Shown here piece after piece: positions 6,129 to 64,000 of a stretch of DNA of 64,000 bases. The stretch's first letter is position 1; every line of letters starts with the position of its first letter. The DNA is taken from the NCBI GenBank assembly GCA_947649575.1, contig CANSRZ010000002.1, forward strand, positions 132,049 through 196,048, in the 5' to 3' direction. The notes beneath the pieces were generated by a model. That model saw nothing but the letters and a program-made list of their open reading frames with translations, was not told the DNA's origin and searched no databases. The stretch is from an uncultured Clostridia bacterium (GTDB taxonomy: Bacteria > Bacillota > Clostridia > Christensenellales > UBA1242). Position numbers and translations under genes: made by a program.

Positions 6129-6149
6129 CAAATTATAAAGGAGAGAAAT

Positions 6150-6461: not shown

Positions 6462-6469
6462 GAGGGATC

Positions 6470-6832: not shown

Positions 6833-6993
6833 AAAGAGAAAAGATTGAGAAAAAGTATTCACGGCTTATAAACAACACAATAGAACGTATGAAAGATAGA
6901 CCAATGGAAGAGTTGTGGCCAGAGCTAGACAAATTAAAAGCCAAGATGGCGGAAGAATGTGAAAGTAAAGGAATAAAACTTGAAAGTAAATGA
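6829..6993 (+). CDS. Small hypothetical protein between terminase genes (54 aa)
   Basis: An ATGA overlap couples it to the upstream gene, and its 3' end overlaps the terminase large-subunit start by 14 bases. The product MKREKIEKKYSRLINNTIER is a charged helical peptide. Coupling on both sides suggests it is translated and may help set terminase levels. Function unknown. Confidence 0.5.
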   Translation: MKREKIEKKYSRLINNTIERMKDRPMEELWPELDKLKAKMAEECESKGIKLESK

Positions 6994-8610: not shown

Positions 8611-10173
8611 ATGTCAAAGTATAGTTTTAATTTAAAAGATAAGCAAGTATTGGATAATATACGTTCGCCATTGGTATATCAATTTAACCTTGCACGCAAT
8701 TTAGCGCTTCTTAGCAATGATCCTACGGTTATCAGGAACTTCTATCAAGTAGAGGCTGAAAAGCTAACAAGAGACCAATGGCTTGCAATGGAAATGAAAG
8801 ATAAGTTTATGGCGCAATCCATAGATGGACAAGCCTTTGCATACTTTGGAATTTGTCCTATGATTGTGCAAGGGAAAGTCAATCTTCTAGCCTCAAGTGG
8901 TTTTAAATGTCAGAGTGATGCGAAAGAGATAGACGACAAATTAAATGAGTTCATTGAAGATGCAAAGTTGAAAGAGAAGTTTGCAGAAGGTGTTTATCTT
9001 GAGAGTGGTTTAGGTGATTTCTTATATCGTTTATCATATGATCCTAAAATCAGCCATAAACCAATAATTGATGTTATAGAGCCACAAAACTTTGAAATCA
9101 ATTATGCAAGAGGTCAAGTTAAATCCTATGTTATTAAAATCGTTGCTGATGAAGATCCAGATTATGAATTGAGAGAAATTCATTATAGGAACGATAAAGG
9201 CGAGATATGTATTGCATATCGCTTTTTTTATTCTGGCAAGTATGTAGCACCAGATGATAAGTCTTTGATTGAACAATGCAGAGAAAAATTCCCTATAGAT
9301 ATCAACATAGAAGAGAAAGTCTTGCCGTTTAAAGATTTTCCAATCGTATTTAAAAAGAATGCAAATTCAAATCAATTATATAGAGGGGAACGTGGTGTTC
9401 CTGATATACAAGGATTAGACACGATTGAAGATGCTTTAACAGAAGCAATAAGTGATTTGATTGACGCTATTCGAAAGGGTGGAGTGAGAGAGTATATTGA
9501 CTCAAGCCTTATTCCTCAAACACCAGACGGCAAGGATATGAAGTTAAGCCCTTTCAACAAAAGAATAATAACAACGAAGGGAAGTTCAAATCCTGCAAAT
9601 CCTAAAAACCTCTTGCAAGTTGTTCAAGCAGATATCCATTGGGAAGGCTACATAAAAGCAATTCAAACATTAATGTCGCAGGCCATAAACAAGGCAGGCT
9701 TATCTCCAACAACACTTGGTTTAACTGGACTTGAAAGCATAAATAGTTCAGCAGAGAGCCAGGAAGCAAGAGAAAAGACAAGTTTAAGAACTAGAGAACT
9801 TTGCCTTTCAACATGGGAGAGAACTCTTAAAGAACTTTTAAACAAATACCTTCAAATCCTGGATTATATCGAAGGAAAAGAAATCCTAGACTATTCAAGT
9901 GTTATCAAAATACACTTTGACGATTATATCAGTCCATCAGTTGAGAACATAACTGAAGTTTTGGTTAATCAGGTGGCGGCTGGAATTAAATCACAAAAGC
10001 ATGCTATTAAGGACTTGAATAGTGAATACGATGACCAAGACGCAGAAAAGGAAATCCTAGATATTTTAACAGAGCAAGGTGCGCCTGTATTGCAAGACAG
10101 CCCTACTGAGCCTGTTGTAGATATGGAGAATAGCACTCCTAAAAATGCTAATTTAGAGAATAGCAACTCTTAG
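8611..10173 (+). CDS. Phage portal protein
   Basis: At 520 residues this is the size of portal (head-tail connector) proteins, whose dodecameric ring is the DNA gate. It lies directly after terminase and before scaffold and capsid. Typical features include the long helical stem region around residues 260-300 (LDTIEDALTEAISDLIDAIR), followed by SINSSAESQEAREKTSLRTR near 375 and a helical C-terminus. The final codons lie in a tandem-repeat tract (see 10125-10250) that gives a low-complexity NANLENSNS tail. Family call is by context and pattern. Confidence 0.8.
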   Translation: MSKYSFNLKDKQVLDNIRSPLVYQFNLARNLALLSNDPTVIRNFYQVEAEKLTRDQWLAMEMKDKFMAQSIDGQAFAYFGICPMIVQGKVNLLASSGFKCQSDAKEIDDKLNEFIEDAKLKEKFAEGVYLESGLGDFLYRLSYDPKISHKPIIDVIEPQNFEINYARGQVKSYVIKIVADEDPDYELREIHYRNDKGEICIAYRFFYSGKYVAPDDKSLIEQCREKFPIDINIEEKVLPFKDFPIVFKKNANSNQLYRGERGVPDIQGLDTIEDALTEAISDLIDAIRKGGVREYIDSSLIPQTPDGKDMKLSPFNKRIITTKGSSNPANPKNLLQVVQADIHWEGYIKAIQTLMSQAINKAGLSPTTLGLTGLESINSSAESQEAREKTSLRTRELCLSTWERTLKELLNKYLQILDYIEGKEILDYSSVIKIHFDDYISPSVENITEVLVNQVAAGIKSQKHAIKDLNSEYDDQDAEKEILDILTEQGAPVLQDSPTEPVVDMENSTPKNANLENSNS

Positions 10174-23869: not shown

Positions 23870-24655
23870 ATGGCGTATTCATATAAAGGTAGTTTAAGTT
23901 TTGGGTTTGTATATATTCCAATCACACTTCATAGCACGATTAAGAATAATGACATTGGATTTAATATGATTGATAAAAAGACTATGAGTCGTGTTAAATA
24001 TAAAAAGACTTGCACTGATTGTGAGGATAGAGAAGTTAAACAAAGCGACATTGTTAAGGGCTATGAATATGAAGAGGGAAAGTATGTGATTTTTGAAGAT
24101 GAGGATTTTGAAAAGATTAAATCCAAGAAAGATAAAAATATCACAATTGATAGCTTTGTAGACCTTAAAGAGATTGATCCGCTATACTTTGATAAACCAT
24201 ATTATGTGGCACCTACGGGGGCTGAAAAGGCTTTTAACGTTTTACTTAATGCTATGGAAGAAACGAATAAAGCGGCAATTGCAAAGACTGTGCTGGGCAC
24301 AAAAGAAACGCTAGTTATGATCAGAGCAAAAAACGGCGAAATGCTGCTTAATACTCTGTTTTTTGAAGAAGAAGTGACCAAAAATCCTGCAAAAGAAGTT
24401 AAGGATACGTCGAGCGAGCAAGAAAAGAAACTTGCAAAATCTATCATAGAGTCAATGACAGGTCATTTTGAGCCCGAAAAATATAAGGATGAATATAGAG
24501 AAAAAGTTCAAAAAGCAATAGAACAAAAAATAGCAGGAGAAGAGATAACTGCTCCTAAAGAGAAAAGCGAGGGCAAAATTATCAACCTTATGGAAGCATT
24601 ACAAAAAAGTTTAAAAGCGACGCAAAAACCTAAAAAGGCAGCAAAAGCCAAATGA
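23870..24655 (+). CDS. ku: Ku protein, non-homologous end joining
   Basis: The 261-residue protein is a complete bacterial Ku, which binds double-strand DNA ends as a homodimer and recruits LigD. The beta-barrel core is clear from the start (SYKGSLSFGFVYIPITLHST), with KTCTDCEDREV in the bridge, YEYEEGKYVIFEDEDFEKIK and the LMIRAKNG-like strand near 145. The C-terminal tail is lysine-rich (KATQKPKKAAKAK), a form linked to DNA threading and LigD contact. It overlaps the ligase gene by an ATGA junction. It follows the prophage terminator by about 50 bases, so it may be phage cargo or host DNA. Confidence 0.92.
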   Translation: MAYSYKGSLSFGFVYIPITLHSTIKNNDIGFNMIDKKTMSRVKYKKTCTDCEDREVKQSDIVKGYEYEEGKYVIFEDEDFEKIKSKKDKNITIDSFVDLKEIDPLYFDKPYYVAPTGAEKAFNVLLNAMEETNKAAIAKTVLGTKETLVMIRAKNGEMLLNTLFFEEEVTKNPAKEVKDTSSEQEKKLAKSIIESMTGHFEPEKYKDEYREKVQKAIEQKIAGEEITAPKEKSEGKIINLMEALQKSLKATQKPKKAAKAK

Positions 24656-25581
24656 GTGATCTTTTTGATGATAAAAATATTTCGCCCATGCTTTTGCAAC
24701 AAACCCAGCCATTTGATAGCGAAGAACATATTTTTGAACTTAAGCTTGACGGAATAAGATGCCTAGCATATATTGATAAAAATTCAGTTGTTTTGGAGAA
24801 TAAACGTTTTAAAGATGTAAGCGAAATATATCCAGAGCTTCAAGACATGAATAAATGCGTCAAAAAACGTTGCATCTTGGACGGGGAGTTGGTTGTTTTA
24901 ACTGATGGGCAGCCAGATTTTTTTGCACTCCAAAAACGCAGCCTTATGAGTGATAAACTCAGGATTGAACTTGCCTCCAAGAAAAATCCAGTCCAATTTG
25001 TTGCCTATGATATTTTATATATAGATCATAAAGATATTACTAGCAAGACATTAATGGAAAGAAAGCTATATTTACAAAATAATATTAATGAAGGCCATAA
25101 TTTAAGTATTTCACGATATATTGAAACAAATGGAATTGAGTTTTTTAAACTTGCCAAAAAGCAAAACCTTGAAGGAATAGTTGCCAAGAAAAAAGATGGC
25201 AAATATCATATAGGCAAGCGCACAGATGATTGGGTCAAAATAAAGGTAATGCAAGACGAGGACCTTGTTGTTTGTGGATATATGCCTGACGAAGAAGGTA
25301 ATGTGAAAGATGTGGTTTTAGGTTATTATGACAAAGGTAAGTTTAAATGTCGTGGCAAAGTATATTTAGGGGTGTCTAAACATGACCAGCGAAAAATACA
25401 AGCCTTTGCAAAAAATAACCAAGTTACTAAAGCATGGCTTCCAGAATACAAAAATATCGTTTGGCTGCAACTTGAACTTGTTGGCACAGTAAAATATATG
25501 CACCTAACAAAAACAGGCGGCATGCGCCAACCTGTATGGAAAGGCTTACGAGATGATAAAAGTGTAGAGGAATTGAGATAA
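24652..25581 (+). CDS. ligD: ATP-dependent DNA ligase, LigD ligase-only type
   Basis: The 309-residue protein has nucleotidyltransferase motif I at residues 29-36 (ELKLDGIR, Lys31 is the adenylation site), the LDGELVVL motif III region near 85, a GIVAKKKDGKYHIGKRTDDW motif IV region and WVKIK as motif V, then an OB fold. The polymerase and phosphoesterase domains of full LigD are missing, so end processing must come from elsewhere. The overlap with ku gives a minimal two-gene NHEJ operon. Confidence 0.9.
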   Translation: MSDLFDDKNISPMLLQQTQPFDSEEHIFELKLDGIRCLAYIDKNSVVLENKRFKDVSEIYPELQDMNKCVKKRCILDGELVVLTDGQPDFFALQKRSLMSDKLRIELASKKNPVQFVAYDILYIDHKDITSKTLMERKLYLQNNINEGHNLSISRYIETNGIEFFKLAKKQNLEGIVAKKKDGKYHIGKRTDDWVKIKVMQDEDLVVCGYMPDEEGNVKDVVLGYYDKGKFKCRGKVYLGVSKHDQRKIQAFAKNNQVTKAWLPEYKNIVWLQLELVGTVKYMHLTKTGGMRQPVWKGLRDDKSVEELR

Positions 25582-25716: not shown

Positions 25717-25793
25717 TGGTTGGGATGAGTGGACTCGAACCACCGACCCCCACCTTATCAGGGTGGTGCTCTAACCAGCTGAGCTACATCCCA
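25717..25793 (-). tRNA. tRNA-Ile (GAT)
   Basis: On the minus strand the acceptor TGGGATG/CATCCCA, D-arm GCTC/GAGC, anticodon stem CCACC/GGTGG with loop CTGATAA (anticodon GAT) and T-arm with loop TTCGAGT are all canonical. CCA is encoded. tRNA genes are common phage attachment sites, and this one is the nearest to the prophage end, but no attachment-site repeat was seen within the window. Confidence 0.95.
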
Positions 25794-47607: not shown

Positions 47608-49110
47608 TCAAAGCAATGGCTTTTCCATACTGTTTGGGATTGGAAGATTTAGCAGTTTTAAAACAGTTGGAGCAATATTGGCAATTGAGCAATTCTTTTT
47701 GAGTTTTGCTTTTTTAAACTTTTCACTAACCAATATGCAAGGCACTGGATTTGTTGTGTGAGATGTAACTTTGTTGCCATTTTTATCAAACATAAGCTCA
47801 GCGTTGCCGTGGTCAGCTGTGATTATGCATTCGCCTCCTGCCATGAGCGTGGCAAGAGCAAGCAAATATGCTTGTTTTTCAACACATGCAATTGCCTCTT
47901 TTGCTGAATTAAAATTGCCAGTGTGGCCAATCATGTCAGGATTTGAAAAATTAACTAAAACAAAATCATATTTTTGTGAAGCGATTGCTTCAAGAGTGGC
48001 TTCGGTGATTTCAAGCGCTCTCATTTTTGGATAATAAGAGAAATCTTCAACATCAATGCTTTCAATAAGCTTGCGCTCTTCGCCAGGATAAGGTTCTTCA
48101 ATTCCACCATTGAAATAGAAAGTGACATGTGCATATTTTGTTGTTTCTGCCACATGAAATTGTTTCATGCCTGCTTGAGAAATCAAAGCGGACAGGTTGT
48201 CATTAATCTTTACAGGTGGATAAATCACATTTGTGAAAGCAAGTTCTTTAGCATATTCTTTCATAGGTGAATATAACAAATTTTTAAACTTTTTAACTTT
48301 AAAATGTGTAAAATTGTTGTTAACTATTGCAAAACTAAGTTCTCTTGCTCTGTCAGAACGATAGTTAAAATGAATAACGCTGTCATTATCTTTGATAATT
48401 CCATTATTATCAATTAGAGTTGGCTCGATAAATTCATCAGTTATTCCATTTGAATAATTTTCTTCTATGCAAGAGATTGCAGTTGAGGCTGTCTTTCCTT
48501 TTCCGTTAACTATCACATTATAGGCTTTTTCTAAACGTTCCCAGCGCTGCTCTCTATCCATGGCATAAACTCTGCCAGAAATTGAGGCAATGCTTGCATG
48601 GGTACCTTGAATTTTGTTTTCTAGCCTTTCAACAAAGCCTCTACCAGAAGTAACAGCAGTATCGCGGCCATCAGTGAAAACATGGATGTAAATATGTTGA
48701 ATTTTGTATGCTTTTGCGCAATCTAAGATAGCAAAAAGTTGATTGATGTGTGAGTGAACTCCTCCATCAGACAACAAGCCCATAAGATGAAGATTGCTCT
48801 TATTTTTCTCCGCATGCTTAAACGCTTTTATCAGGGCAATATTATCTTTAAATTTGTTATTAGCAATATCTTGATTGATTTCCATAAGGTCTTGCCAAGT
48901 TTTGCGACCGCTTCCTAATGTTAAATGTCCAACTTCAGAATTTCCCATTTGTCCCTCAGGCAAGCCAACAGCAAGCCCGCTTGCTTCAAGCTGAGTAAAA
49001 GGATATTTTTTTATCAGTTTATCAAGATTTGGAGTGCCTTGTGCTTTTATTGCATTGCCAAAACTTTCCTTTCTTAAGCCGAAGCCGTCTAATATAATAA
49101 GTGTAACCAT
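47608..49110 (-). CDS. gpmI: Cofactor-independent phosphoglycerate mutase
   Basis: The 500-residue enzyme converts 3- to 2-phosphoglycerate in glycolysis, using two Mn ions and a serine. The start MVTLIILDGFGLRKESFGNA holds a metal-binding Asp, GQMGNSEVGHLTLGSGR holds the catalytic Ser, and the late TADHGNAELMF and HTTNPVPCILV carry metal-binding His and Asp residues. FTDGRDTAVTSGRGFVE is also diagnostic. Length is normal. The gene stands alone here, apart from other glycolytic genes. Confidence 0.95.
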   Translation of the reverse strand: MVTLIILDGFGLRKESFGNAIKAQGTPNLDKLIKKYPFTQLEASGLAVGLPEGQMGNSEVGHLTLGSGRKTWQDLMEINQDIANNKFKDNIALIKAFKHAEKNKSNLHLMGLLSDGGVHSHINQLFAILDCAKAYKIQHIYIHVFTDGRDTAVTSGRGFVERLENKIQGTHASIASISGRVYAMDREQRWERLEKAYNVIVNGKGKTASTAISCIEENYSNGITDEFIEPTLIDNNGIIKDNDSVIHFNYRSDRARELSFAIVNNNFTHFKVKKFKNLLYSPMKEYAKELAFTNVIYPPVKINDNLSALISQAGMKQFHVAETTKYAHVTFYFNGGIEEPYPGEERKLIESIDVEDFSYYPKMRALEITEATLEAIASQKYDFVLVNFSNPDMIGHTGNFNSAKEAIACVEKQAYLLALATLMAGGECIITADHGNAELMFDKNGNKVTSHTTNPVPCILVSEKFKKAKLKKNCSIANIAPTVLKLLNLPIPNSMEKPLL

Positions 49111-50268: not shown

Positions 50269-50298
50269 AAAAAGCCAATAAAATTTTGGCTTTTTTAA
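50269..50298. terminator. Shared terminator of converging genes
   Basis: AAAAAAGCCAA pairs with TTGGCTTTTTT between the plus-strand unknown gene and the minus-strand TtcA-like gene. Confidence 0.8.
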
Positions 50299-50996
50299 AA
50301 CAAATTATATCTGTCAGGATGAATTATTGCATTGAATATTTTTTCTTTTGCATTGGGGTAAGTTTTGTTAAGCTGTTCAAGCAAAAGTTTTGCTTTTTCT
50401 CTTTCCGTGTTGTGATTTGCTTGGCAGGTGTTGTGAATAACTGGAAAATCTTTTGATAGCGATTTTATCTCTTCTTCTGAGATGTAAAGCATTGGTCTGA
50501 TAACGGTCAGGTCTGTGCGAGATAAATATGACTTTGGCTTAAAGGTGGACAGGCGACTTTCAAAAAATAGTGATAACAAAAATGTTTCGATAAGGTCGTC
50601 TTTGTGATGTCCAAGCGCAACTTTGTTGCAGCCAAGCTCTTTGGCAGAACTGTTTAAAATTCCTCTTCTAAGATTTGCGCAAAGACTGCAAGGATTTTTT
50701 TCTTTTCTTATTTCAAAAACAACTTTAAAAACTTCGGATGGAATTAAATGAAATTCCACATCAAGCTTTTCACAAAACTTTTTTATTTCAGAATAATCCA
50801 TTTCGCCATTTGATAAATCCACAGCGATTGCCACGAGTTCAAATTTATTTGGTGAAAATTTTTGAAAATTCTTTAATAAAGTTAATAATGATAAACTATC
50901 CTTTCCGCCAGACACACCAACTGCTATTTTATCGTTATTTTCTATTAAATTAAATTCCTCGCAAATTTTTCTTAAACTGCCTAATAATTTCTGCAT
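50295..50996 (-). CDS. TtcA-like ATP pyrophosphatase (tRNA thiolation family)
   Basis: The start MQKLLGSLRKICEEFNLIEN is set by GAGGAAA on the minus strand; an upstream ATG (51023) is less likely. The PP-loop VGVSGGKDSLSLLTLL is near residue 33, CSLCANLRRG gives a CxxC pair, and LGHHKDDLIETFLLSLFF follows. This matches the TtcA/TtuA class, where the cysteines help hold an iron-sulfur cluster and C32 or a related tRNA base is thiolated. The exact target is not certain. Confidence 0.85.
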   Translation of the reverse strand: MQKLLGSLRKICEEFNLIENNDKIAVGVSGGKDSLSLLTLLKNFQKFSPNKFELVAIAVDLSNGEMDYSEIKKFCEKLDVEFHLIPSEVFKVVFEIRKEKNPCSLCANLRRGILNSSAKELGCNKVALGHHKDDLIETFLLSLFFESRLSTFKPKSYLSRTDLTVIRPMLYISEEEIKSLSKDFPVIHNTCQANHNTEREKAKLLLEQLNKTYPNAKEKIFNAIIHPDRYNLF

Positions 50997-51168
50997 AATT
51001 TCCTCTTTTAAATAATTTAACAAAAATTAATTAAAAAATCAATAAAAATGCGAAAAAATCATTAAAAAATGCAAAATAATTAATTAAAAAATATTTTTTC
51101 GCCTGATTTTGCCTTGTTTGTAGCGATTTTGAAATAATATATTAATTAATAAATATTTTTTAATTTAT

Positions 51169-51197
51169 TTGACTTAAATTTTATAAACTAGTATAAT
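51169..51197 (+). promoter_or_regulatory. Promoter of the giant surface gene
   Basis: TTGACT (51169-51174), 17-base spacer, TATAAT (51192-51197). Transcription should start near 51204, giving a leader of about 100 bases that is nearly all A and T. The coding start has GAGGAGG, so this gene is not leaderless. Confidence 0.7.
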
Positions 51198-51306
51198 TTT
51201 ATATATATTTAAAAAATATATAATAAATATTAATTTTATTTTTTTAAATATTTTTTAAGCATGTTTAATATTGAATTTTTTACAGATATTAAACGAGGAG
51301 GAATTG

Positions 51307-54300
51307 ATGAAAAAAATTTGGATTGCATTACTCTCAATTTTTGTTCTTGTTGGCGGAATAACTTTTTCTGCCTGCGGCAAAAAACAAGTTTCTTTAAGTT
51401 TGTCATCAACGTCAGAAACTATTTGCATTGACGCAAACAAAGAAGAGGAATTACATATTGTTACAGCCACTGTCCAAGGTGTTGACGATGGCGTTGTTTC
51501 TGCTGTGCCAAATTCTTCTGGAATTGTGAAAGTGGAAACCGTTTACAATTCAACCACAAAGAGAAATGAAATCACCTTGACTGGAATAAGCGAGGGCACA
51601 ACTCAGGTTGTTGTTACTTGTCTTGATAACAGCAAAGTTTTTGATACAATTACTGTAACAGTTTACAGTGACATCCTTGGCATGGAAGAAAAAAGTCATG
51701 ACATGTTTGAAAGCGGCAAAAGTCCTTTTTATGCTGTTAGAGGAGATAACATTTCTCTTAGCCATCAAAACCTTATCACCTTTACAAACGGCACTCGCGA
51801 GAACTGCCGAAAAGATATTGAATGGCATTTGGTGGAAGAAACTTCTAACGCCAGCATTCAAAACGATATCTTGACTGTTAATTCAAATTATGCAGAAAAT
51901 ACAATTCAAATATATGCTTCATCTTTATATGATCCATCAATTCAAACTCAACCTATCACTTTAACAGTTGTGGACAAGATTGAAAAAGAATCAATTCAAA
52001 TTTCTTACGCGCCTAAGCTTACTATGCCATTCACACCAATAGATGAGGTGGATGGAACAATCAGAATTGTGCCTAATGACCCAAATGATGAAAACTATAA
52101 TGGCTATATCAGACTTTCTTTTGCTGGAAGTCAACGTTTGGATGTTGAACCAATTGTGACTGGCGCCAACATTGAGGGCTATCAAATTGTCAAAGTTGCA
52201 AGAATTGGCGAGCCTGTTATTTCTGGCAGTGGCAGTGATGCAAGGATAGTTTATACATACAGAATTTTTCCACTTGACCAATATGTTGATGGTCAAGGTC
52301 ATACAGTTTATAATCCTGCTGTTAATGGCGACAATCAATTAATCTTCAATGCAAAATATTCTGAGTTCGAATATTCAGTTAATACAGATAGCGTGGAAGT
52401 TGAAACTTATGAAAAAATCAAAGAGCTTAATGTTTATGACGAGAATGGTGCAGAAATTCCTGATGGGCAAATTATTTACACTTCTTATCAAAACATTTAT
52501 GGCAAACAACTTAACATTGAGCTTTTGCCTGTAACGGTTGTTGGAAAAACAGGACAATATTCAATTGAAGTGATTTATGACATCAATACTCCAAATATTG
52601 AAAATATTACAGAAAATACTCTCAAATTCTATTATCGTTCAAGACAAGGCAACTATGTTGCAATTGACATGAAGAAAAGAGAGGGAACTTCTAACGTTTT
52701 TGAAACTTCAAACTTTGCTGATGCTCAACAAATTTATGTGATTGCTGGCGACGGCTTTGTGACTTCTATTCCTGGCGTTACTGTTAGATTTACTTCTAGG
52801 GATAACAACGATGTATCGCAAGAACTTCATTTAACTCTTTATAAATCAGCAACAAGTTTGACTTTTGAAAATCAAACAGACCTTGCTATTGTTGCTCCAA
52901 CTGATGAAGCAAGTGTAAAAACTATTCCTGTGCGATTTGAACTTAAAGGACAAACAAGCATTGTTGGGCTTCGCACTGAAAGCTTTGGCAAAGGTTTTAG
53001 CGTAAGCCAACCTTATGGGGCTGAGGCTGGTGAAGACAGTGTGGTTTTCTGGGTTGATGTAAAAATTGAAGAAATAGGAATAACTTCTAATGGTTGGTAT
53101 AAAATTTGTCACGAAAACGGCATTCAAAGTCAAGAGTTTGATGTGTCACTCTTCTTGCCATTTACTGACGCTAGATTTGAGTATGACCTTGGAGAGAATA
53201 ATCCAGCAGTTACTGACAGCACAACACACTCAACAGAAAACATTCCTGATTTAAAAGAGGGACTTTATCGTTTAAATAACGGCGAGCTTACGCTTGTTCC
53301 TAATGCAATGACAAGCCTTGCATATTTGCAACTTAAAACTGCATCATCTGTTCAACTTATTCCTACAAACAACAGGGCTGGCGGATATGACGCAGAAGCA
53401 AGAGTAGAATTTAGATATCTTGACCTTGTTACAGGCGAGAAAGGTAATGAAGCAACATTTGATACACTTTCAGCAAATGATATTTATAAAAATGTGATGA
53501 ACAATCCAAATAGTGGGCTTTCTTCATATATAGGAATGGCTCGTGACTACACAATCACAACAAACAACTATGCTGGCAAGACTTATCTAGTTGCAATTTT
53601 CACTGGAAAAGATAGAGATTATCAAGATGTGCAATATGTGCGCATAATCAAGATAGAAACTCATGTTGCAGTTGGTGCAATGGCTACAAAAGACGGAACT
53701 GTGACTGTGTATGCAACAAACTCTGTCAATGACCCAGAGCTTGCAAGATACAATGTTGAAATTTCTCTTGGCGATAATCTTATTATGCCTGTTACTTACA
53801 GCGAGTTTGATAGATTTGATTTCTATTCAACAAATTATAGATATCCACAAGATTCAACTCAAAGTTCAATCACTTGGGAAGAGAATTATTACAGCATATC
53901 AAATGTTACAATTGATGGCAAAGTGTTGAAGTTTACTATTATTGGAAATACAACAAAAGGCAATCCTATCGTGCCAGACACTTTGATTGTTTCTTATAAT
54001 TATAAAAACGTGCGCTCTTCTGTTTCAATCTCTGTAAGAGTGCTTAACGCAGACAGAGTGACAAGCGTGCAATGGAACAACAGCAATGAAGAGGGAATTT
54101 ATTTTGAAATTGATAAAGATAATATCAGTTCAGCGGATAATTCTTTTGTGCTTGTGACTTCTACTGCTCCGTCAAATGCAAAAGATCAATCACTTGACTA
54201 TTATGTTACTGACAAAGAGGGCAATAGAGCAAACTTTGTTTCTGTTGGCGAAGTTGCAGGTCGTGGCGTTGTAACACTTAATGCCAATACTGGTGCGTCT

Positions 54301-57300
54301 GGCTATCTTTACATTTTGCCAAGAGATGCAAGCAATAATGAATTTATTTCATTTAGTTATTATGTTAAAAATGGTCAAGCAGTGGCTTTTGACGATGTTG
54401 AAAATCATGTTGGCATGCCTGTTGAGGGCGTGATTGCCAAAAATCAATTGGGGCTTAATTATCGAGATGGCTTAACGGGCTTTGATTATCTTATCAAATA
54501 TGGATTTTTTAAGACCAACGCACTTAGCGATAATGAAATTTCTTTTGAAAACATTTTGATAAAAATTCCTGTAACTATTGCAGACGGAAAAAGTTTTGAT
54601 ACAGCTTACAGACTTTACAATTCAGCAGATTTCGACGAAATTCAAAGATTTTCATATTATATTGTTATGAACAGTGTTGTGCTTAAAGATTGGAAAGGCA
54701 TAAACAATTTTAACGGCGGAATTAAAGGTTGGAGAGATGATATAACAATCAATCTTGCTGGAAGTTCTTTAAGCTTCATTGATGTTTTGAATCAAGCGGA
54801 TAATGACGAGGGTGGTGTCATAGATTTAACATTCACTGGCTCTGTTATCGGTGGCGGATTTGTTGCAAACATAAACTATGGAACAATTGATAATGTTAAA
54901 GTTGACGTTAATTTGTCTGAGTCAACAGCACTTTCTTCAACTGTGGACGGTGCAGGGCTTGACTATGCAGGCGGAGTGGTTGGCATCAATAACGGAACAT
55001 TAAATAACGTTAAAGTTTTGGGCGCATCCGTTTCTGGCGCAGACTGTGTTGGCGGTGTTGTTGGACAAAACAACGGAAGCATTACAAGTGCAAGATTTGA
55101 AATTTATACATTTGCAAATGGTGAAAACACCTTGTCAGCAGAAACGGTTGTTGGCGGAATTGTTGGTGAAGCAGTCAGCGGAAGCATAACACTTTCATTT
55201 GCATATGATTATACTCTTGAAACGGCAGATGATAAAACTGCTTCAAATCTCAGCGGAACAACAATAGGTGCAATTGCAGGTGTTGTTAATGGAAATACAA
55301 CAATATCAGAAAGTTTTGGCGTTGTAAATATTGTTAATGCTTTTGGCAATATTACAAACAACAATCTTTCAACTTATAACAATATAACAAATATCTATAC
55401 TGGATATTATGACAGCAATGAAGAGTATAAAATTTACACTTCTAAGCTTGGCAATTCTGCATGGGTTTCTAACGGTCAAACAGGCTTTTTGGCATATGTT
55501 AATGGTGAAGATAAAGAACACTTGAAAAATGTTTATCAAGATATGCCTTTGACTGCGGAGGAGATTAATAATGCTCAGTTTAAAGAAGTTGAAAAAACTT
55601 ATAATAAGAATTCAAGCTTTAATCAAACTTTGCCAACGCAAAATGGCAATGGAATTGTGTTCTATTACAGTGCAGGCGACAACGTTTATGATGACATGAC
55701 AAGCAGTGAAAGAAATGATTTGCTTGCCCTTAACACAATTCTTTTGACAGATATCTTTGGCGAAATTGCTCCAAGATTGAATGTTATCAGCTCTGACGTT
55801 AACGCTCTTGAAGTTACAAATAATGCGCTTATTGTCAAAAAATGTGGCAGTGTTACATTAACAATTAGCTCTAAACAAAATTATAAGAACAACAAACATA
55901 TTAATATAGATATAATCTATGCGCTTTCTGATTTGCGTGCAGATTGGAGTGCTGGTGCAAGTTATACTGAGGTTACAAATGGCTCAACAGTTGAGGCTCA
56001 GCGTGAAAGCTCAGTTGTTGTGAGATATCAGTTTAAAAATGAAGTTATCTCTCTTGGCTCAGGCGGAAGAGATTTCACTCTTCTTCAAACTTCTTACAAC
56101 TTTGTTAATCAAATTGAAGAGAGTTTAAACAATGACTCTAAATTCAATTCAAAACCAACAACAATTGTCAGCGGAAATATTTTGACAATTGCAACAACAA
56201 ATACAAGCTATGCAGAAAGCATTGCAACAACAAGCATCAAGGTTAATAAATATGACGCTGAAAGCGAATTTGGCAAAGCAATACAAGGCAAGTTTAAACA
56301 TATGTTTAATTTAAGCTTGTTTGAGGGCGCTCTTAACTTGTCGCTTTCTCAAAATGAGTTGCCAATAACTCCAAGCGCTGTCGGCGTGCTTGATGTTGAA
56401 CTTATCACAAACAATGAAAATGACTTTATCGAAATTGATATTGCATTTGACGGCATTAAATTAGACAAAAATCCTGATACAAGAACAGGAAATAGATTTG
56501 AATATTCTCTTCCTGGCTCAACAGAAGTTAGACTTATTGCAACAATCAATAAAATTTCTGAAAGCAAGCAAGAAAGTGATGGCAAAACAGTTATAAAATA
56601 TCGTGTAAATTTTGAGGTGGCTGAAAATTATAAAGGTCAAATCAATGATTTGCAAGAATATGATGTAACAGTTCACTCTTCTTCTAATGTTAAAGACAAA
56701 TCATTTGTTTTAAAAGTTAGCAGGCAAAACTTTACTAACATTGAAATGACTTCATATATGACTGAGGGCATTTACAGAGCAGAAACCAATACAACAACAT
56801 ACACTATTGGCAGAGCGTCTAGCGTGTTCAAGCCTGGCGATGTTGCGCTTCTTGCTATAAATGTTAATCCAACTTATGCATATTATGACTATTTCACTTT
56901 GACATTGACATCAGGGTCAAATATCAATCTTGACGCTGTGACAATGACTTATATGAACAGATATTTGGATAGTGAAAACACTTATCGTGATGCAACAGCT
57001 CAACAAATCACAGGTGGACTTCAAATTAATCAAAAGCCTGAAACAACACAAGACCTTGCAAGACTTGTTTTCAAGATTTGGATTAATCCAAATATGAGAC
57101 AGGATGCAAATCTTAGATTTACAATTGCTTTCTATGAAAATGGCAAACAAGAGCCTATCGATGTTGCTCATAAGCCAATTTCTATCAGCTATTTGGCTGA
57201 GCCAGAGCTTAGAGTTGATGGCAACAGCGAAAACGCAGTTGTTTCAAGAGGAACAGTTGTGCCAGTTGAAGTTGAGGTTAACTATGACCAAACTGTAAAC

Positions 57301-60300
57301 CTTGAAACTGCTTCTATCAGAAATGTTGAAAGAGGAATTTATCTTTCTTCATTTGGCGAGCCTGTTATCAACGAACAAACTGGCAGAAAAATTTATACAG
57401 CATCACTTCAAGCAGATGTTACAGCAATGCTTAGAGATGACGCAACAGAATTCTATGTTTATGTCACAGTTTCAAGAGTTATCAACGGCGTGATTGAAAC
57501 AAAGAACACAGAAGTTAACGTCAGACTTGTAAACTTTACAATTGATGCCGAAAATGGCGTTGAAATTAAACATGAAGAAAGCAACAATAATTTTACAGCT
57601 TATATGGGCGTTGCAAAGCAATTGTCATTTGGCTATGACATTTATCCAACAACTTATTCTTATGCAATTAACAATGCAGAGCAAGTTAGAAAAGTTGCAG
57701 AGTTAAATCAAGAACGTATAAAGTTTAACAATACTGGATATTATAGAGAATTTGTTGACACAAGCGTTGAGGGGCAAACAAAAGACAATCTTTATTCTAT
57801 CAACTATAAATATGTTAGAGGTGAAAACAACACAGTTAGTTTGCGAGCAGTTCCTGTTTGGGAACGCCTTGCATTCTGGTCAGAAAGCAGAAACAACTGG
57901 GTGCCAATCTACAACACAACAACAGGGTTGTTTAATGACGCTGGCGGAAACTATCAATTTGACATAACAACTGCTGGAACTTTGGTCGTAACAGGTTTAA
58001 AACTTTCAACAAGTTCAACAAGATTTAGACTTCAAACTTATATCCAAAATGGCTCTGGGGAGCAAAATATTGCAACAAAAGAATATTACTTTACAATGGA
58101 TTGCAGTGCTTATTCAAGCGAGAATCTTCCTCTTTGCATTTGGGATGAGGACGATTTCAATGATATTCGTGAGGGCGAAGCACAAGATTATATCTTGATG
58201 AATGACCTCGTGCTTAACGATTATACTCCATTCTCAACTTCTTCAATCAGAAGTTTGGACGGAAATGGATTTACAATTTATCTTAACAGTTTCAACACAG
58301 AGCAAACTGGCAACAATCTAAGACTTGCGCTTTTCAATGAAGTTACAGCAGGCACAACTTTGAAAAATATCAGAGTCAATATTTATAATGCTGGTCAAAT
58401 TGTGGCAGATGTTTCAACTTACAAAAATGTTGAAGTTGCAGGCTTTGCAATTACAAACTCTGGAATTATCACAAACTGCGAAGTTGTTGCATTCTATATG
58501 GATAATGAGAAAAACACTTCAAGATTAAGTGGCGACGTTGGCTTGAATATCAAATATGTGAACGGCAAAGGCAACAGCGAAGAAACATATCTTAATGATA
58601 GCGATGCTTCTTTCAACAGTTCAGTTGCAGGCTTTGTTCTCACAAATAACGGAAATATCACAAACTCACGCGTAGGCGGAGAAAAAGTTGCTCTTCTTGT
58701 GAAAGGTGAGTCTATTCGCGAAGAGGACGATAAAAATCCAGAAGTAAAAGCTTCTTATGTTGACCTTGAAGAATTTAATATAATTGCTCAAGGTGATATG
58801 GCGGGCTTTGTGCTTGAAAACTCAGCAGGCGCAGTTGCAAGTTCTTATGCAAAACGCATTGGAATGAGAAATAAATCAAACAGCACAAACAGATATCTTG
58901 CAGGCTTTGTTGGCGTCAACACAGGCAGAATTATTTCATCTTTTGTTGAGGGCGTCAAAGGCGAAAATGAAACCGATAATTATTGCATTCAAGGCAGTAA
59001 CTTAACTTCAAAACTTGGCGTTATTGCAGGCTTTGCTTACACAAATTCAAGCGTAATACATGATTGCTATTCAAATATACTTATTTCAAACAATAGTGAC
59101 GAAAATTATATTTATCTCGCCACAGGCTTTGTCTATACAAATGAAAGCGAGGGCTTGGTAGAAAATTGTTATTCAGCTTCACAAGTTATGTTCTCAAAAT
59201 TCTCACAAATGAACTTTACAGGTATCAGCGTTGACGGTGAGCCTCAAAATCATGGACAATATTTGAACAATTATTATTATAGTCGTTCATCAGGTGGCTC
59301 GGCAGGCTCAATTGAGGACAAGTTTGTGTTGAATACAACAGAACTTAAAGACGTTTCAAATGAAAACTATTTCTATGGCTTTGCATTTGCTTCATCAAGT
59401 GCGGCTGGTGACGGTGTTTGGTATATGGATGAATTTGCGGGTCCTAAACTTGTTGAGCCAGAAAAGATTGCTTACTCAAACAGACGTTATTCAGTTACTG
59501 ATTTTGTAAACGATGAGGGCAAACAATATGTATTGCCATATAATATAGTTGAACTTGATAACAGAGAGCTTAGCACAAGCTATGGCGGAAGAGATAATCC
59601 AATTATCATCAGAACGGCAAGCGAATTTGATAAAGTTATGGGCAGTGCAAGCGACAGCGATATCAATAAAAACTTTAATGAAAATGAAATTTTTGGCTCA
59701 TACAGACTTGTTGACGATGTTGACTTGGCAGAACTTTTCACTTCTTCATCAGATACAACATTTAACTTGGGCTCAACAACTCGTGCCTTTACTGGAACTT
59801 TTATGGGTAACGGCTTTGATATCAACAATCTTTCTATAAGTTCAAGAAACAGAAACTTTGCTTATGGAATGTTTGCATCGGTAGAAAATGCTGTGCTTGT
59901 AAACTTTAACCTTTCATATAACAATGTTATCAACAATCAAGCGGCAATGGTCGGAGCTCTTGCAGGGCTTGTACGTAATTCAAAAATCGTGAATGTAGAA
60001 ATAACTGCAAACACAAATGCTGTTGTTGAGGGTGCAACTTTTGTTGGCGGTCTTGCGGGCATGGTTCTTGGCGATAGTTATATTAAAAATATTTCAATTG
60101 TTAACTCAAATGTAATATCAGATAGATTTATATCTTCACTTGACGAAGTTGACGGCGTGTTTACAGAAAAATCAGCAAACAAACTTAGAACTGACTACTC
60201 AAGTATAGTTGGCGACTCGCTGATAACTTCTATCACCGCTGGCTTTGCAAACGATTTGTTTAATAAAGTTGCAAACTACTCTTATGCAGGCGGACTTATC

Positions 60301-63300
60301 GGCTATGCTGATATTGATAGAGACGGCAAGACAAGTGGATATACTTATCTTGAAAAGCGCGTGCTTAAAGATTATGATTTGACAACTTTAAGAGCAAGCG
60401 GAACACTTAATGTTCAAGGTCAAGTGGCAGGCGGACTTGTTGGCTATCAAGGACGTCAAACTTATATTATGGACGCTGGTGTCACAATTGACGGAAATGG
60501 AAGTGAAAACTCTTCTCATATTGTTGCAACAAAATTCTATGCAGGTGGCGTGATTGGTCAAGCAAGCTCTGCAATGAGTCAATTGTTTGCAGTGCATAAT
60601 AGCGAATTTCAAAATTCAATTGAAAGCAATATTTCAACTTATTACAGCGGAAGCACAACGGCTGAAAGAGGAATTCTTGACTTGTTTGCAACAGGTGCAG
60701 ACGAAGAAAAATATTCTCAAAAAGCAGTTGGTGGACTTGTTGGAATTGCAACAGGTGGAAGCTTGGTTGTAAGCTATTCAAAACTTAACGCAGTGTCAAA
60801 CAATGCAGACTATGCAGGTGGCGTGATTGGAACAATCAGCACTGCTGGGGTTGAGCAATATTCTTTCAGCAATGGTGCAACTGATGAATGGGGCAATTTC
60901 TTGATTCATGAGGTTTATGCTACTGGCGATGTCAGAGCAAGATATGTCGCAGACCCAATTACTTCAAAAGAAACAAGCGGAAAAGCTGGCGGAATTGTTG
61001 GCTCTATTGCTACAAACTCAATTGTAAAATTGATGACAGTCAATGTGATGAATATGCTTAGCGTTTACAACTATGCAACAAATTCTGATTTCACGACAGA
61101 AACTGGCTCAGGTGAATTCTTTACAAGACTTGGTGTTTATGCAATCGCTGGCGAAGTTGGCGGAACAATCAACAATAACGGAACTTTAAATGCAATGAAT
61201 TTAAGAAATACATTGTCATTTGTTGAATATGCAAAAAAAGGTGATAATGATAGTGTATCGTTTGAGCCATCTGTTGGCTTTGTAAAAGATTATTCTGGCT
61301 CTGCTTTTGCAGGAACAACTGCAAATGTTTCAGCATATCCAGGATACTCAGTAGAACAACCTCAAGACCATTTCTATATCTCACTATATACAAGCATTAT
61401 CAACGCAGAACAAAATGGCTATCAATTGACTTTTGGCTTGTTTATAGGCTCACGTATTTGGAACACAAACAACTGGACTCAAACAAGCGTTCAACTTTAT
61501 CCATCAATCAGATATACTGTTGCGGAAGAAGTGTTTGTATGGCTTGACGCTTATGATGCTTCAATTGAAGAAGTGTTCAGGACAATAAGCGCTTCGCCAA
61601 CAACAGAAATTCGTGTGCGCGGACAGGCAAGTCCAAACTCAACAATTGTGACTGATATTAATCTTGCTGATTACTGGGCAAGAAAAGGATATTCAAATCG
61701 TTATATTGATACCTTTAATGGAAACATGATTTGGTCGCGTGACTTTGGCGTTAAGCCTGGTGCAGAGGTAGGCAATGATGCGCCTAGGATTATTCTGGAC
61801 AGACCTCTTTTCAATGCTATTGGAGCTGGGGCAAGCATTAATGGTGTTAGTTTCCAACTTGGCACAGGTGTTGAGTCTTCATCTGAACAAGAAAACGGGT
61901 CAACTTTCACAAATAATGGCACTGCTTATAGTGGTGCAATTTGTGCAGGAGGTATCACAAGTGCAAACATAGCAGCGATTAATATTTATGTTAAAGAAAC
62001 AGTTAATCTTAAAGCTGGGAATAACAATTCTTCTGTTGGCTTGCTTGCGACAAACATTACAAGTACAGCGATTAACACAATCAGAATTATTCCTGAAACG
62101 AGAGCTCTGTTAAATGTTATAAATTCTAGTGATAATCTCTCTAGTGTTGGCTTGATTGCAGGTGCTTATGCACAAAATGATGAATTAGAGTCTAAAACTA
62201 TAAGCGGACTGTCAATAGGCCCAGCACAAGAAACAGAAATACAAGCGATTTCATTTAGTAGTATAAATGGCACTACTAATGGCGTTAGTAACCCTCTTAA
62301 CATTGGCTTATTCTTTGGCAGTGTTAGCAAAGGAGGCAATTCTGCCACAGGAGAACCTGCTCAAGAACTTGATTTCACTCTTGGACAAGTAGATAATCAA
62401 GACACAAGTTGCTATAAAATCAATCTTGCCAATTTGAGTGGGGCTTCACATGTAAACGTAGGTGGCGGTGTTGGCTCATTATCAGGGGCTAGAGTTAATT
62501 TTAGCGGCAACGGTGGAACGATTATCAATACTGGAATTGAGATAAATACAAGCGTTGGCGAGCTTAACGCAGGCTTAATGATAGGAACTTCTGATTCAAG
62601 CCTTACAAACTTGAACGGCAATGGCGGAATTGTTAAAGGATATTTGTTACAAGGTAGTAATGAAAATAATTCAATAACTAACGCAAACATTGGTGGCTTT
62701 ATTGGGCAATCAACTGGTGCAATAAGCCTTGCGAATATCAAGTCAGAATTTGTTGTAAAACAAGGAACTTCAAGATGGGACGGTGATTCTTTCAGAAAAG
62801 ATCATATTGATACTATTGAGATAGACAAACCAAGCAATCTTGCAACACCTATCACAGTCTCTAACACTGCAAATGTTGGCGGTCTTGTTGGACTTGCTAC
62901 AAATTCATTCACATACACTGGCAGCACAAGCGCAGACAGCGCTCCATCAATAAATGAAAACTATCAACCTCTTGCAATCAATGCAAAAACTGTAAACCTT
63001 GGCGGCATTTTAGGTCAGGGCAATGGTTCAGCCGCAATAAGTGGGTTTGTTAAATCAAATGCAACATTATTGGGATACTATACACCTCAAAACGAAACAA
63101 AAACAGAAACGGTTGCTAATTATTATGCTTATGTTGGTGGCTTAATTGGTAATATTGCTGCACCAAAACAAACTAGTGGAGCTGGCGCTCAGACATCACA
63201 AGCACAAGTAACAATTCAAGGAGTTGCTACAGGTGGAGTTACGCACGCTTCTATGTATGTAGGCTCACAGATTTATACAAATAATAATGCAGTTGTTGGC

Positions 63301-64000
63301 GGAATTATTGGCAGAATGGTTAATACAAATTCTAACAATACAATTTCTGGCACAGTCTTTGGCGGTGCGTATAAATTCTTTGGCGGAAATCAAGTTGTGT
63401 TTGGTGGAACAGTTGGTCGCAGTGATGTTGCAACATTATCTTATAACGCAAACTTTGGCGATGTATTCAATATTGGTAAAAAACATTTAGATACCTATGT
63501 TTTTGGCGGAATTGTTGGTTGGGGCGAGCAAAGCATGACAGCAAACAACAATTACAGCATGGTAACAAATCATAATGCTTCAACTTATACCGAGGCCACT
63601 TCAAAAGTTTGGGCAATGTTTGGTCAAAACATTAGCTTAACGAAAGAAAGCAATCACAACTATTACAACCATGCAGTGTCAATGGCAATTGATGGCTTTG
63701 GACAAGATATGGCTTATAAGACAGCTTATGACCAAGACCAAGACTATATGGGTTATGGCAATGCTTTGCGAGGAAATGACAACACAATACTCAATTTCTT
63801 GTTCAGTAATTATCAGTTGCAAAATTTGCTTGGTGCAGATATTGAAGATATTGCAGGCACAAAACTTAATCCTATTAAGTTTGATAGTAAAATTGTTAAT
63901 TCTGAAAAAACAACAATTGACAATGATGGAGTAACAATCAGCACAAATACAAATGGTATAAAATATTATGTTTTGACGGCAGATGTTGAATTGGATTTAA
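51307..64000 (+). CDS. Giant lipoprotein-type surface protein with GLUG-like repeats, 3' partial
   Basis: A single frame with a GAGGAGG site is open from 51307 to the right edge, more than 4,230 codons. The N-terminus is a signal peptide (MKKIWIALLSIFVLVGGITF) ending at SAC, with the lipid-anchor Cys at residue 23. Residues about 28-130 resemble a bacterial Ig-like domain (GISEGTTQVVVTCLDNSKVF). From about residue 1,170 the protein has many glycine-rich repeats of the GLUG type, such as YAGGVVGINNGTLNNVKVLG, CVGGVVGQNNGSITSARFEI and LAGFVGVNTGRIISSFVEGV, spread through the rest of the window and separated by long beta-rich blocks. This architecture suggests a long stalk for adhesion or for binding host or plant polymers. 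No catalytic domain is recognised, and the C-terminus is not seen. The shorter frames on either strand here are shadows. Confidence 0.9.
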   Translation, partial: MKKIWIALLSIFVLVGGITFSACGKKQVSLSLSSTSETICIDANKEEELHIVTATVQGVDDGVVSAVPNSSGIVKVETVYNSTTKRNEITLTGISEGTTQVVVTCLDNSKVFDTITVTVYSDILGMEEKSHDMFESGKSPFYAVRGDNISLSHQNLITFTNGTRENCRKDIEWHLVEETSNASIQNDILTVNSNYAENTIQIYASSLYDPSIQTQPITLTVVDKIEKESIQISYAPKLTMPFTPIDEVDGTIRIVPNDPNDENYNGYIRLSFAGSQRLDVEPIVTGANIEGYQIVKVARIGEPVISGSGSDARIVYTYRIFPLDQYVDGQGHTVYNPAVNGDNQLIFNAKYSEFEYSVNTDSVEVETYEKIKELNVYDENGAEIPDGQIIYTSYQNIYGKQLNIELLPVTVVGKTGQYSIEVIYDINTPNIENITENTLKFYYRSRQGNYVAIDMKKREGTSNVFETSNFADAQQIYVIAGDGFVTSIPGVTVRFTSRDNNDVSQELHLTLYKSATSLTFENQTDLAIVAPTDEASVKTIPVRFELKGQTSIVGLRTESFGKGFSVSQPYGAEAGEDSVVFWVDVKIEEIGITSNGWYKICHENGIQSQEFDVSLFLPFTDARFEYDLGENNPAVTDSTTHSTENIPDLKEGLYRLNNGELTLVPNAMTSLAYLQLKTASSVQLIPTNNRAGGYDAEARVEFRYLDLVTGEKGNEATFDTLSANDIYKNVMNNPNSGLSSYIGMARDYTITTNNYAGKTYLVAIFTGKDRDYQDVQYVRIIKIETHVAVGAMATKDGTVTVYATNSVNDPELARYNVEISLGDNLIMPVTYSEFDRFDFYSTNYRYPQDSTQSSITWEENYYSISNVTIDGKVLKFTIIGNTTKGNPIVPDTLIVSYNYKNVRSSVSISVRVLNADRVTSVQWNNSNEEGIYFEIDKDNISSADNSFVLVTSTAPSNAKDQSLDYYVTDKEGNRANFVSVGEVAGRGVVTLNANTGASGYLYILPRDASNNEFISFSYYVKNGQAVAFDDVENHVGMPVEGVIAKNQLGLNYRDGLTGFDYLIKYGFFKTNALSDNEISFENILIKIPVTIADGKSFDTAYRLYNSADFDEIQRFSYYIVMNSVVLKDWKGINNFNGGIKGWRDDITINLAGSSLSFIDVLNQADNDEGGVIDLTFTGSVIGGGFVANINYGTIDNVKVDVNLSESTALSSTVDGAGLDYAGGVVGINNGTLNNVKVLGASVSGADCVGGVVGQNNGSITSARFEIYTFANGENTLSAETVVGGIVGEAVSGSITLSFAYDYTLETADDKTASNLSGTTIGAIAGVVNGNTTISESFGVVNIVNAFGNITNNNLSTYNNITNIYTGYYDSNEEYKIYTSKLGNSAWVSNGQTGFLAYVNGEDKEHLKNVYQDMPLTAEEINNAQFKEVEKTYNKNSSFNQTLPTQNGNGIVFYYSAGDNVYDDMTSSERNDLLALNTILLTDIFGEIAPRLNVISSDVNALEVTNNALIVKKCGSVTLTISSKQNYKNNKHINIDIIYALSDLRADWSAGASYTEVTNGSTVEAQRESSVVVRYQFKNEVISLGSGGRDFTLLQTSYNFVNQIEESLNNDSKFNSKPTTIVSGNILTIATTNTSYAESIATTSIKVNKYDAESEFGKAIQGKFKHMFNLSLFEGALNLSLSQNELPITPSAVGVLDVELITNNENDFIEIDIAFDGIKLDKNPDTRTGNRFEYSLPGSTEVRLIATINKISESKQESDGKTVIKYRVNFEVAENYKGQINDLQEYDVTVHSSSNVKDKSFVLKVSRQNFTNIEMTSYMTEGIYRAETNTTTYTIGRASSVFKPGDVALLAINVNPTYAYYDYFTLTLTSGSNINLDAVTMTYMNRYLDSENTYRDATAQQITGGLQINQKPETTQDLARLVFKIWINPNMRQDANLRFTIAFYENGKQEPIDVAHKPISISYLAEPELRVDGNSENAVVSRGTVVPVEVEVNYDQTVNLETASIRNVERGIYLSSFGEPVINEQTGRKIYTASLQADVTAMLRDDATEFYVYVTVSRVINGVIETKNTEVNVRLVNFTIDAENGVEIKHEESNNNFTAYMGVAKQLSFGYDIYPTTYSYAINNAEQVRKVAELNQERIKFNNTGYYREFVDTSVEGQTKDNLYSINYKYVRGENNTVSLRAVPVWERLAFWSESRNNWVPIYNTTTGLFNDAGGNYQFDITTAGTLVVTGLKLSTSSTRFRLQTYIQNGSGEQNIATKEYYFTMDCSAYSSENLPLCIWDEDDFNDIREGEAQDYILMNDLVLNDYTPFSTSSIRSLDGNGFTIYLNSFNTEQTGNNLRLALFNEVTAGTTLKNIRVNIYNAGQIVADVSTYKNVEVAGFAITNSGIITNCEVVAFYMDNEKNTSRLSGDVGLNIKYVNGKGNSEETYLNDSDASFNSSVAGFVLTNNGNITNSRVGGEKVALLVKGESIREEDDKNPEVKASYVDLEEFNIIAQGDMAGFVLENSAGAVASSYAKRIGMRNKSNSTNRYLAGFVGVNTGRIISSFVEGVKGENETDNYCIQGSNLTSKLGVIAGFAYTNSSVIHDCYSNILISNNSDENYIYLATGFVYTNESEGLVENCYSASQVMFSKFSQMNFTGISVDGEPQNHGQYLNNYYYSRSSGGSAGSIEDKFVLNTTELKDVSNENYFYGFAFASSSAAGDGVWYMDEFAGPKLVEPEKIAYSNRRYSVTDFVNDEGKQYVLPYNIVELDNRELSTSYGGRDNPIIIRTASEFDKVMGSASDSDINKNFNENEIFGSYRLVDDVDLAELFTSSSDTTFNLGSTTRAFTGTFMGNGFDINNLSISSRNRNFAYGMFASVENAVLVNFNLSYNNVINNQAAMVGALAGLVRNSKIVNVEITANTNAVVEGATFVGGLAGMVLGDSYIKNISIVNSNVISDRFISSLDEVDGVFTEKSANKLRTDYSSIVGDSLITSITAGFANDLFNKVANYSYAGGLIGYADIDRDGKTSGYTYLEKRVLKDYDLTTLRASGTLNVQGQVAGGLVGYQGRQTYIMDAGVTIDGNGSENSSHIVATKFYAGGVIGQASSAMSQLFAVHNSEFQNSIESNISTYYSGSTTAERGILDLFATGADEEKYSQKAVGGLVGIATGGSLVVSYSKLNAVSNNADYAGGVIGTISTAGVEQYSFSNGATDEWGNFLIHEVYATGDVRARYVADPITSKETSGKAGGIVGSIATNSIVKLMTVNVMNMLSVYNYATNSDFTTETGSGEFFTRLGVYAIAGEVGGTINNNGTLNAMNLRNTLSFVEYAKKGDNDSVSFEPSVGFVKDYSGSAFAGTTANVSAYPGYSVEQPQDHFYISLYTSIINAEQNGYQLTFGLFIGSRIWNTNNWTQTSVQLYPSIRYTVAEEVFVWLDAYDASIEEVFRTISASPTTEIRVRGQASPNSTIVTDINLADYWARKGYSNRYIDTFNGNMIWSRDFGVKPGAEVGNDAPRIILDRPLFNAIGAGASINGVSFQLGTGVESSSEQENGSTFTNNGTAYSGAICAGGITSANIAAINIYVKETVNLKAGNNNSSVGLLATNITSTAINTIRIIPETRALLNVINSSDNLSSVGLIAGAYAQNDELESKTISGLSIGPAQETEIQAISFSSINGTTNGVSNPLNIGLFFGSVSKGGNSATGEPAQELDFTLGQVDNQDTSCYKINLANLSGASHVNVGGGVGSLSGARVNFSGNGGTIINTGIEINTSVGELNAGLMIGTSDSSLTNLNGNGGIVKGYLLQGSNENNSITNANIGGFIGQSTGAISLANIKSEFVVKQGTSRWDGDSFRKDHIDTIEIDKPSNLATPITVSNTANVGGLVGLATNSFTYTGSTSADSAPSINENYQPLAINAKTVNLGGILGQGNGSAAISGFVKSNATLLGYYTPQNETKTETVANYYAYVGGLIGNIAAPKQTSGAGAQTSQAQVTIQGVATGGVTHASMYVGSQIYTNNNAVVGGIIGRMVNTNSNNTISGTVFGGAYKFFGGNQVVFGGTVGRSDVATLSYNANFGDVFNIGKKHLDTYVFGGIVGWGEQSMTANNNYSMVTNHNASTYTEATSKVWAMFGQNISLTKESNHNYYNHAVSMAIDGFGQDMAYKTAYDQDQDYMGYGNALRGNDNTILNFLFSNYQLQNLLGADIEDIAGTKLNPIKFDSKIVNSEKTTIDNDGVTISTNTNGIKYYVLTADVELDL

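Follow-up and report, generated by a model that had tools for sequence, protein, structure and literature searches.

The window, that is, the whole stretch of DNA analysed (64,000 nucleotides), ends inside a single open frame on the forward strand that runs from ATG at 51307 to position 64000 (4,231 codons by translation; 4,243 codons when counted from an upstream TTG); the preliminary description, which had put it at more than 4,230 codons cut by the edge, was correct. Beyond the window the frame stayed open for another 281 bases and reached the end of contig C2 (base 196329; 4,325 codons from the ATG), so that the window edge is in effect also a contig end. The following features were assigned (positions, strand, description):

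47608..49110, reverse strand: conserved neighbour, presumably a phosphoglycerate mutase-like gene (copies in the named loci)
50295..51023, reverse strand: upstream neighbour, PP-loop ATPase gene (PF01171, E 6.2e-20), which we take to be TtcA-like
51169..51197, forward strand: promoter-like site TTGACT-17-TATAAT (11/12, consensus match only)
51296..51301, forward strand: AGGAGG, ribosome-binding site, 5 bases 5' of the ATG (read directly)
51307..51375, forward strand: signal peptide and lipobox (cysteine 23 at 51373–51375)
51307..64000, forward strand: giant lipoprotein gene, window part (4,231 codons); continued by 281 bases on C2, an unassembled gap of ca. 1 kb and then C6 (L010:3-5963)
54480..55840, forward strand: first GLUG-bearing segment (ca. 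residues 1060–1510, limits approximate)
58090..60486, forward strand: central core (residues 2262–3060), holding the best conserved block
59752..61251, forward strand: piece with Pfam Glug over the cut-off (residues 2816–3315, E 3.7e-6)

The assembly consisted of 1,092,894 bases in nine contigs (completeness 95.4%), of which the giant gene (ca. 20 kb) takes up ca. 1.8%; no paralogue was found in the same genome by protein search with two overlapping parts. Eight promoter matches were counted in the region against 4.6 (sd 2.4) in shuffled sequence, i.e., within ca. 1.4 sd and not clearly above it; the 11/12 match taken together with AGGAGG gives only a hint that the gene may be strongly expressed.

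Complete gene and its distribution

Both ends of all nine contigs were read to locate the rest of the gene. Contig C6 starts within an open frame of 1,986 codons that is closed by a stop and followed by a terminator-like hairpin (18 pairs) and a RadC-domain gene (PF04002, E 2.9e-24). On the 6,567-codon frame of relative G002, the window part was aligned to residues 24–4330 and the C6 part begins at residue 4670; the residues missing between the two parts number ca. 311 (G054), 339 (G002) and 347 (G004). The gene is thus read as split over C2 and C6 with about 1 kb lacking, and the whole protein, since the relatives put 311–347 residues into the gap, would comprise about 6,640 amino acids. In the ten relatives for which flanking DNA was fetched, a RadC-family gene starts within 2.0 kb 3' of the giant in nine, and in all ten either it or the small gene that comes next on C6 lies downstream; the join is supported independently, because the downstream genes of C6 also adjoin the giant in relatives. 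The RadC-family gene is on the strand opposite to the giant in G054 and G002. Two RadC-like genes ca. 1.4 kb apart were noticed 3' of the giant in the window's own genome (L010:6120-9075; the first by Pfam RadC, the second by eye). Three more contig ends of the assembly break inside frames that resemble GLUG proteins by eye: L044 (C1 end), 367 codons; L008 (C4 start), 504 codons; L013 (C9 start), 418 codons.

Of the 101 genomes of the genus, the window's own included, 93 were matched by query residues 1–1550, as were 62 of the 65 good genomes. Frames of at least 6,000 codons were obtained 62 times (median 6,566 codons, range 6,059–7,702; stop-to-stop frames, slightly longer than the proteins); 30 shorter frames, among them that of the own genome, and the masked frame of G029 were left out of these statistics. 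The latter, nominally 30,488 codons, is artefactual, since its contig of 110,904 bases contains 72,000 N; the readable part amounts to 6,485 codons. Contig limits were known for 28 copies; the 20 with more than 6,000 codons are complete, and the eight shorter ones hit a contig end. A chance open frame is excluded by the matching frames of 6,059–7,702 codons in 62 other genomes of the genus.

The PP-loop gene precedes the giant in 13 of 13 named loci checked (of 36 found) and in seven of the ten fetched relatives, the other three (G027, G041, G050) having none within the 0.8–2.0 kb fetched; copies of the gene at 47608..49110, 61.6–71.4% identical, were present in 11 of the 13 named loci. Distances between the giants (first 1,400–1,500 residues) track those between the products of the two housekeeping genes upstream (24 genomes, made up of the window plus 23 of the 36 loci, those with all three genes; Mantel r 0.90, 0 of 999 permutations as high), while the mean p-distance is 0.575 for the giant vs 0.28 for the housekeeping proteins, i.e., the giant evolves faster. 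Vertical inheritance of the gene is the simplest reading of these data. By its distribution the giant is a single-copy core gene of a large lineage, no local oddity, and its product probably belongs to the permanent equipment of these cells. Water-deer colon or cecum is the named source in two of the 36 relatives' records. A second, shorter giant (3,385–3,735 codons) matched the core profile (below) in six of eight genus members sampled (G026:C10, G053:C1, G021:C1, G062:C8, G041:C3, G030:C6); the window's genome (G000) and G016 gave only one core-profile match each.

Two profiles were used outside the genus, A1 (N-terminal, 12 rows) and A3 (core, 32 rows). With A1, 206 of 297 genomes of the family (27 of 42 genera) matched, many of them weakly; among the matches listed, E 1e-20 or better was reached outside the genus in six genera (g11, g13, g20, g27, g32, g36). 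Five giants from five of these genera (G119, G131, G135, G126, G110; 5,616–6,600 codons) were aligned with the genus proteins over ca. 950–3,200 residues (26–34% identity in the best segments), and the PP-loop gene stands upstream in three of them (G131, G135, G126). In the order, A1 matched 99 of 296 genomes, the matches outside the family being short and mostly confined to the GLUG segment (best E 4.8e-11). With A3, 64 of 391 genomes of the class matched: nine of nine sampled family members strongly (E 1.3e-78 or better) and the other 55 weakly (best E 3.8e-13), again over short stretches only. Giants of 6,378–8,277 codons were also met in other families of the order (G323:C28, G342:C34, G465:C11, G579:C2). 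Those of G323, G465 and G579 (fetched part) have only short GLUG-sized segments in common with the present protein and that of G342 has no shared segment at E 1e-4; all four were rejected as orthologues. Giant surface genes thus seem common in the order. The preliminary description had called a giant lipoprotein unusual: this holds for the anchor and the conservation, and does not hold for giant size as such, since giants are not rare in other genera and in other families of the order.

Probable membrane anchor

The lipid-anchor signal noticed earlier at the start of the frame was found again as a lipobox with cysteine 23. The cysteine was present in 28 of 28 orthologous N-termini and invariant across a 12-row alignment; the strict pattern was matched by 26 of the 28 (exceptions: G095, where the match begins at residue 2, and G073, where the box is weaker). 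The signal peptide is the top hydrophobic segment of the protein (2.26, Kyte–Doolittle, 19 residues), the runner-up (1.47) lying in the C6 part.

Other anchors were searched for in the protein and in the genomes. LPxTG was absent from the 23 sequences scanned; no SLH domain turned up when both parts of the protein were searched in 14 pieces, and neither these pieces nor the last 942–1,000 residues of ten copies gave a Pfam match for wall binding. Extension of the contig, proposed earlier as a means of finding the end and any wall-binding or SLH domain there, thus led to the end on C6 and to neither domain. Genome searches gave the following: sortase (PF04203), no match in the window's genome, 12 of 13 sampled genus members without, controls positive 3/14; SLH, 0 of 21 genomes (own included), controls 4/14; CW_binding_2, 0 of 21 (own included), controls 2/14; LspA (PF01252), E 4e-36 in the own genome, present in 20 of 21, controls 10/14; penicillin-binding transpeptidase domains, two matches in the own genome, controls 10/14. 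The sole sampled genus member with sortase is G004 (three matches). Two transpeptidase domains in the genome suggest that the cell is probably walled. Of the routes tested (sortase, SLH, CW_binding_2, lipid) only the lipid one is probably available, in an assembly whose gap (completeness 95.4%) could hide a gene. A lipid anchor of the giant is well supported by these sequence data, and cysteine 23 itself would be the lipidated residue. The earlier assignment to giant lipoproteins rather than to wall-anchored or S-layer giants therefore stands: the protein has no sortase motif, wall-binding Pfam domain or second equally strong hydrophobic segment, and its genome has no sortase or SLH match.

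Repeats, domains and identity along the protein

GLUG-like repeats had been described through most of the length, which overstates their extent: Pfam Glug was over the cut-off in two of the 14 pieces, at 59752..61251 and at the start of the C6 part (E 1e-9), and below it in two more; a crude motif scan of 4,325 residues gave ten GLUG sites, all within residues 1282–3997. The first GLUG-bearing segment is the part of the N-terminal profile best kept by the other genera of the family; Glug was detected in it at E 0.001 in 11 of 29 orthologues, the window's own copy not being among them. Tandem Repeats Finder returned a single 40-base match in the C2 part of the gene, and the autocorrelation peaks were weak (ca. 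0.1–0.15) with differing spacings. Variation of repeat number between strains, a comparison proposed in the preliminary description, is not to be expected, because the C2 part has no tandem DNA repeat beyond the 40-base match; there is no tandem array, and the length is nearly constant in the genus.

Of the 32 members of the central core, 31 were without a Pfam match at E 0.001; the core is distantly similar to the first segment (hhalign probability 95.5%, E 1.6e-8). Identity among nine copies compared peaks at 43–50% at residues 2201–2800 (G054 numbering) and drops to 19–29% past residue 4800. At the C-terminal end (last 942–1,000 residues, ten copies), nine copies gave no Pfam family at E 0.01 and the tenth a weak Ig_mannosidase below the cut-off; none was over the cut-off, and SH3 was not matched in any of the ten. 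A search for solved structural relatives of the N-terminal profile found none; the core gave two ribosomal-protein rows (E 0.54 and 0.67), taken as chance, as were NCBIfam rows far below the cut-off (roughly eight of the 14 pieces searched).

Proposed role and its alternatives

The protein is best read as a membrane-tethered giant lipoprotein fibre (ca. 6,640 residues) that serves the cell as its main tether or adhesin; a probability of about 0.58 is given to this reading. The signal peptide would export the protein, and lipidation of cysteine 23 would hold it in the cytoplasmic membrane, from which a long, probably beta-rich fibre would extend outward through the wall; its parts would be the N-terminal region, GLUG-bearing stretches (probably solenoids) and the fast-changing C-terminal end, and it would act in contact with particles, the gut lining or a partner cell. 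Computation shows the frame with its length, the lipobox, the conservation, the place in the genome and the lack of sortase, SLH and CW_binding_2 matches; lipidation as such, the fibre shape, the exposure of the far end at the surface and the adhesive role we infer. Counted in favour of the tether or adhesin are the frame and its join, the presence in 93 of 101 genomes, the near-constant length, the neighbours and apparent vertical inheritance, the lipobox, LspA, the two transpeptidase matches, and the lack of sortase, SLH and CW_binding_2 matches in the own genome. A C-terminal third that changes fast fits, as expected, an end facing the target; the lack of a known ligand-binding domain by Pfam at that end (ten copies) is counted against the reading, as are the sortase matches of G004, by which sortase is not absent genus-wide. 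GLUG proteins of a gut methanogen were read as possible adhesins (accessible part of PMC9723798), and GLUG itself as solenoid-related (PMC4021314, from the portion available).

Conservation of the middle, rather than of tip or anchor, would also fit a structural or assembly role. Many lipid-anchored copies could form an envelope layer in place of an S-layer, with no specific adhesion; the near-constant length, the conserved middle, the absence of SLH and CW_binding_2 from 21 genomes and the promoter-like site before the gene all agree with such a coat. It is nevertheless considered unlikely in view of the fast change in the C-terminal third and of the size, S-layer proteins being usually far shorter than this giant. 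A protein of the spore or forespore surface would suit the sporulation genes reported in UBA1242 (PMC12306168), the probable family of this genome; the promoter-like site resembles, by consensus only, those of vegetative sigma-70, and no spore-coat domain was found, which makes this reading very improbable. Scarcely any weight is given to a giant surface enzyme, e.g., a protease of the IgA1-peptidase (M26) type whose repeats merely carry a catalytic part: Peptidase_M26_N was matched in one of the 32 core members (E 9e-5; not the window's copy) and IgA1 proteases contain GLUG (PMC4021314, in the part at hand), while HExxH was absent from the 23 sequences scanned and no enzyme family was over the cut-off in the 14 pieces or in the C-terminal 942–1,000 residues of ten copies. 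Cleavage after export into several separate proteins, suggested for far larger proteins elsewhere (PMC13104272, as far as its available text goes), is poorly compatible with a single conserved order and a near-constant length throughout and is thought most improbable here. An assembly artefact or a chimera of separate genes, suggested by the break over two contigs of a draft assembly, can practically be dismissed, since length, order and neighbours recur in the assemblies of relatives and, of 28 copies, only the eight below 6,000 codons are incomplete, each running into a contig end; an early stop, a frameshift or a chimera, named beforehand as refuting cases, is contradicted by many other assemblies in which homologous frames of similar length lie beside the same neighbours.

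The putative tether or adhesin was compared with known giants. Sortase-anchored (LPXTG) and S-layer (SLH) surface giants are likewise large with a presumed surface role; this protein has neither anchor, and its own genome gave no sortase or SLH match. Giant1–5 of Apilactobacillus kunkeei (extracellular, 3,000–8,000 aa, a Firmicute of small genome, adhesion proposed; PMC12863079, PMC4494060, both in the parts accessible) resemble it in the small-genome Firmicutes host, very long extracellular (here presumed) proteins, proposed adhesion, solenoid stretches (here probable) and the conserved place of at least one gene. According to the same partial texts, they carry a beta-solenoid at the N-terminus and, at the C-terminus, an SH3b-like domain that presumably binds the wall, and are encoded in a recombining cluster of five genes. 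The present protein has a lipid-anchor signal at its N-terminus, is encoded by one gene of near-constant length and gave no Pfam match to SH3 at its C-terminal end. The GLUG-motif proteins (PF07581) of Methanimicrococcus are similar in having Glug over the cut-off in parts and in being membrane-associated possible adhesins (PMC9723798, section available); in the present protein most of the length is without Glug at that level, and the window copy lacks it in the best-conserved core as well. The giants of Omnitrophota and Oscillospiraceae, also from uncultured, partly gut-living lineages, exceed 40,000 residues (accessible text of PMC13104272), compared with ca. 6,640 here and a length conserved across the genus. 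On its sequence, the protein forms a new family of giant surface proteins, a known kind within which its anchor and conservation are unusual. No description of it was recognised in the literature searched (preprints and most subscription journals lay outside the search).

An earlier survey called giant genes strain-specific (as cited in the available part of PMC11573180); in contrast, the present gene belongs to the core of a large genus, and further genera of the family have relatives of it. Pared-down genomes of ca. 1 Mb nevertheless devote ca. 1.8% to this one protein, and lipid tethering suggests itself as a way of holding very large surface proteins where sortase is missing. Reduced-genome UBA1242 (order Christensenellales) live in the gut, appear to be obligate symbionts or parasites and encode, besides sporulation genes, hypothetical membrane proteins with a possible part in transport or contact (PMC12306168, 2025); if the organism belongs to UBA1242, the giant is a concrete candidate for such a protein. 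A tentative and rather doubtful extension would make it the shared contact device of a family of partner-dependent gut Clostridia with tiny genomes, probably UBA1242: a lipid-tethered fibre that attaches the cell to the organism on which it feeds and is retained because unattached life would be impossible, with the far end retuned to each partner.

Elsewhere in the window, a prophage-like stretch (ca. 1000–23800) contains a portal protein gene (PF05133, E 2.9e-7, 8611–10173) and, by eye only and without Pfam match, terminase-like and capsid-like genes. At its edge, adjoining tRNA-Ile (25717–25793), lies a two-gene end-joining pair on the forward strand (23870–25581), Ku (PF02735, E 1.4e-48) followed by ATP-dependent DNA ligase (PF01068, E 5.1e-33), in a genome of 1.09 Mb.
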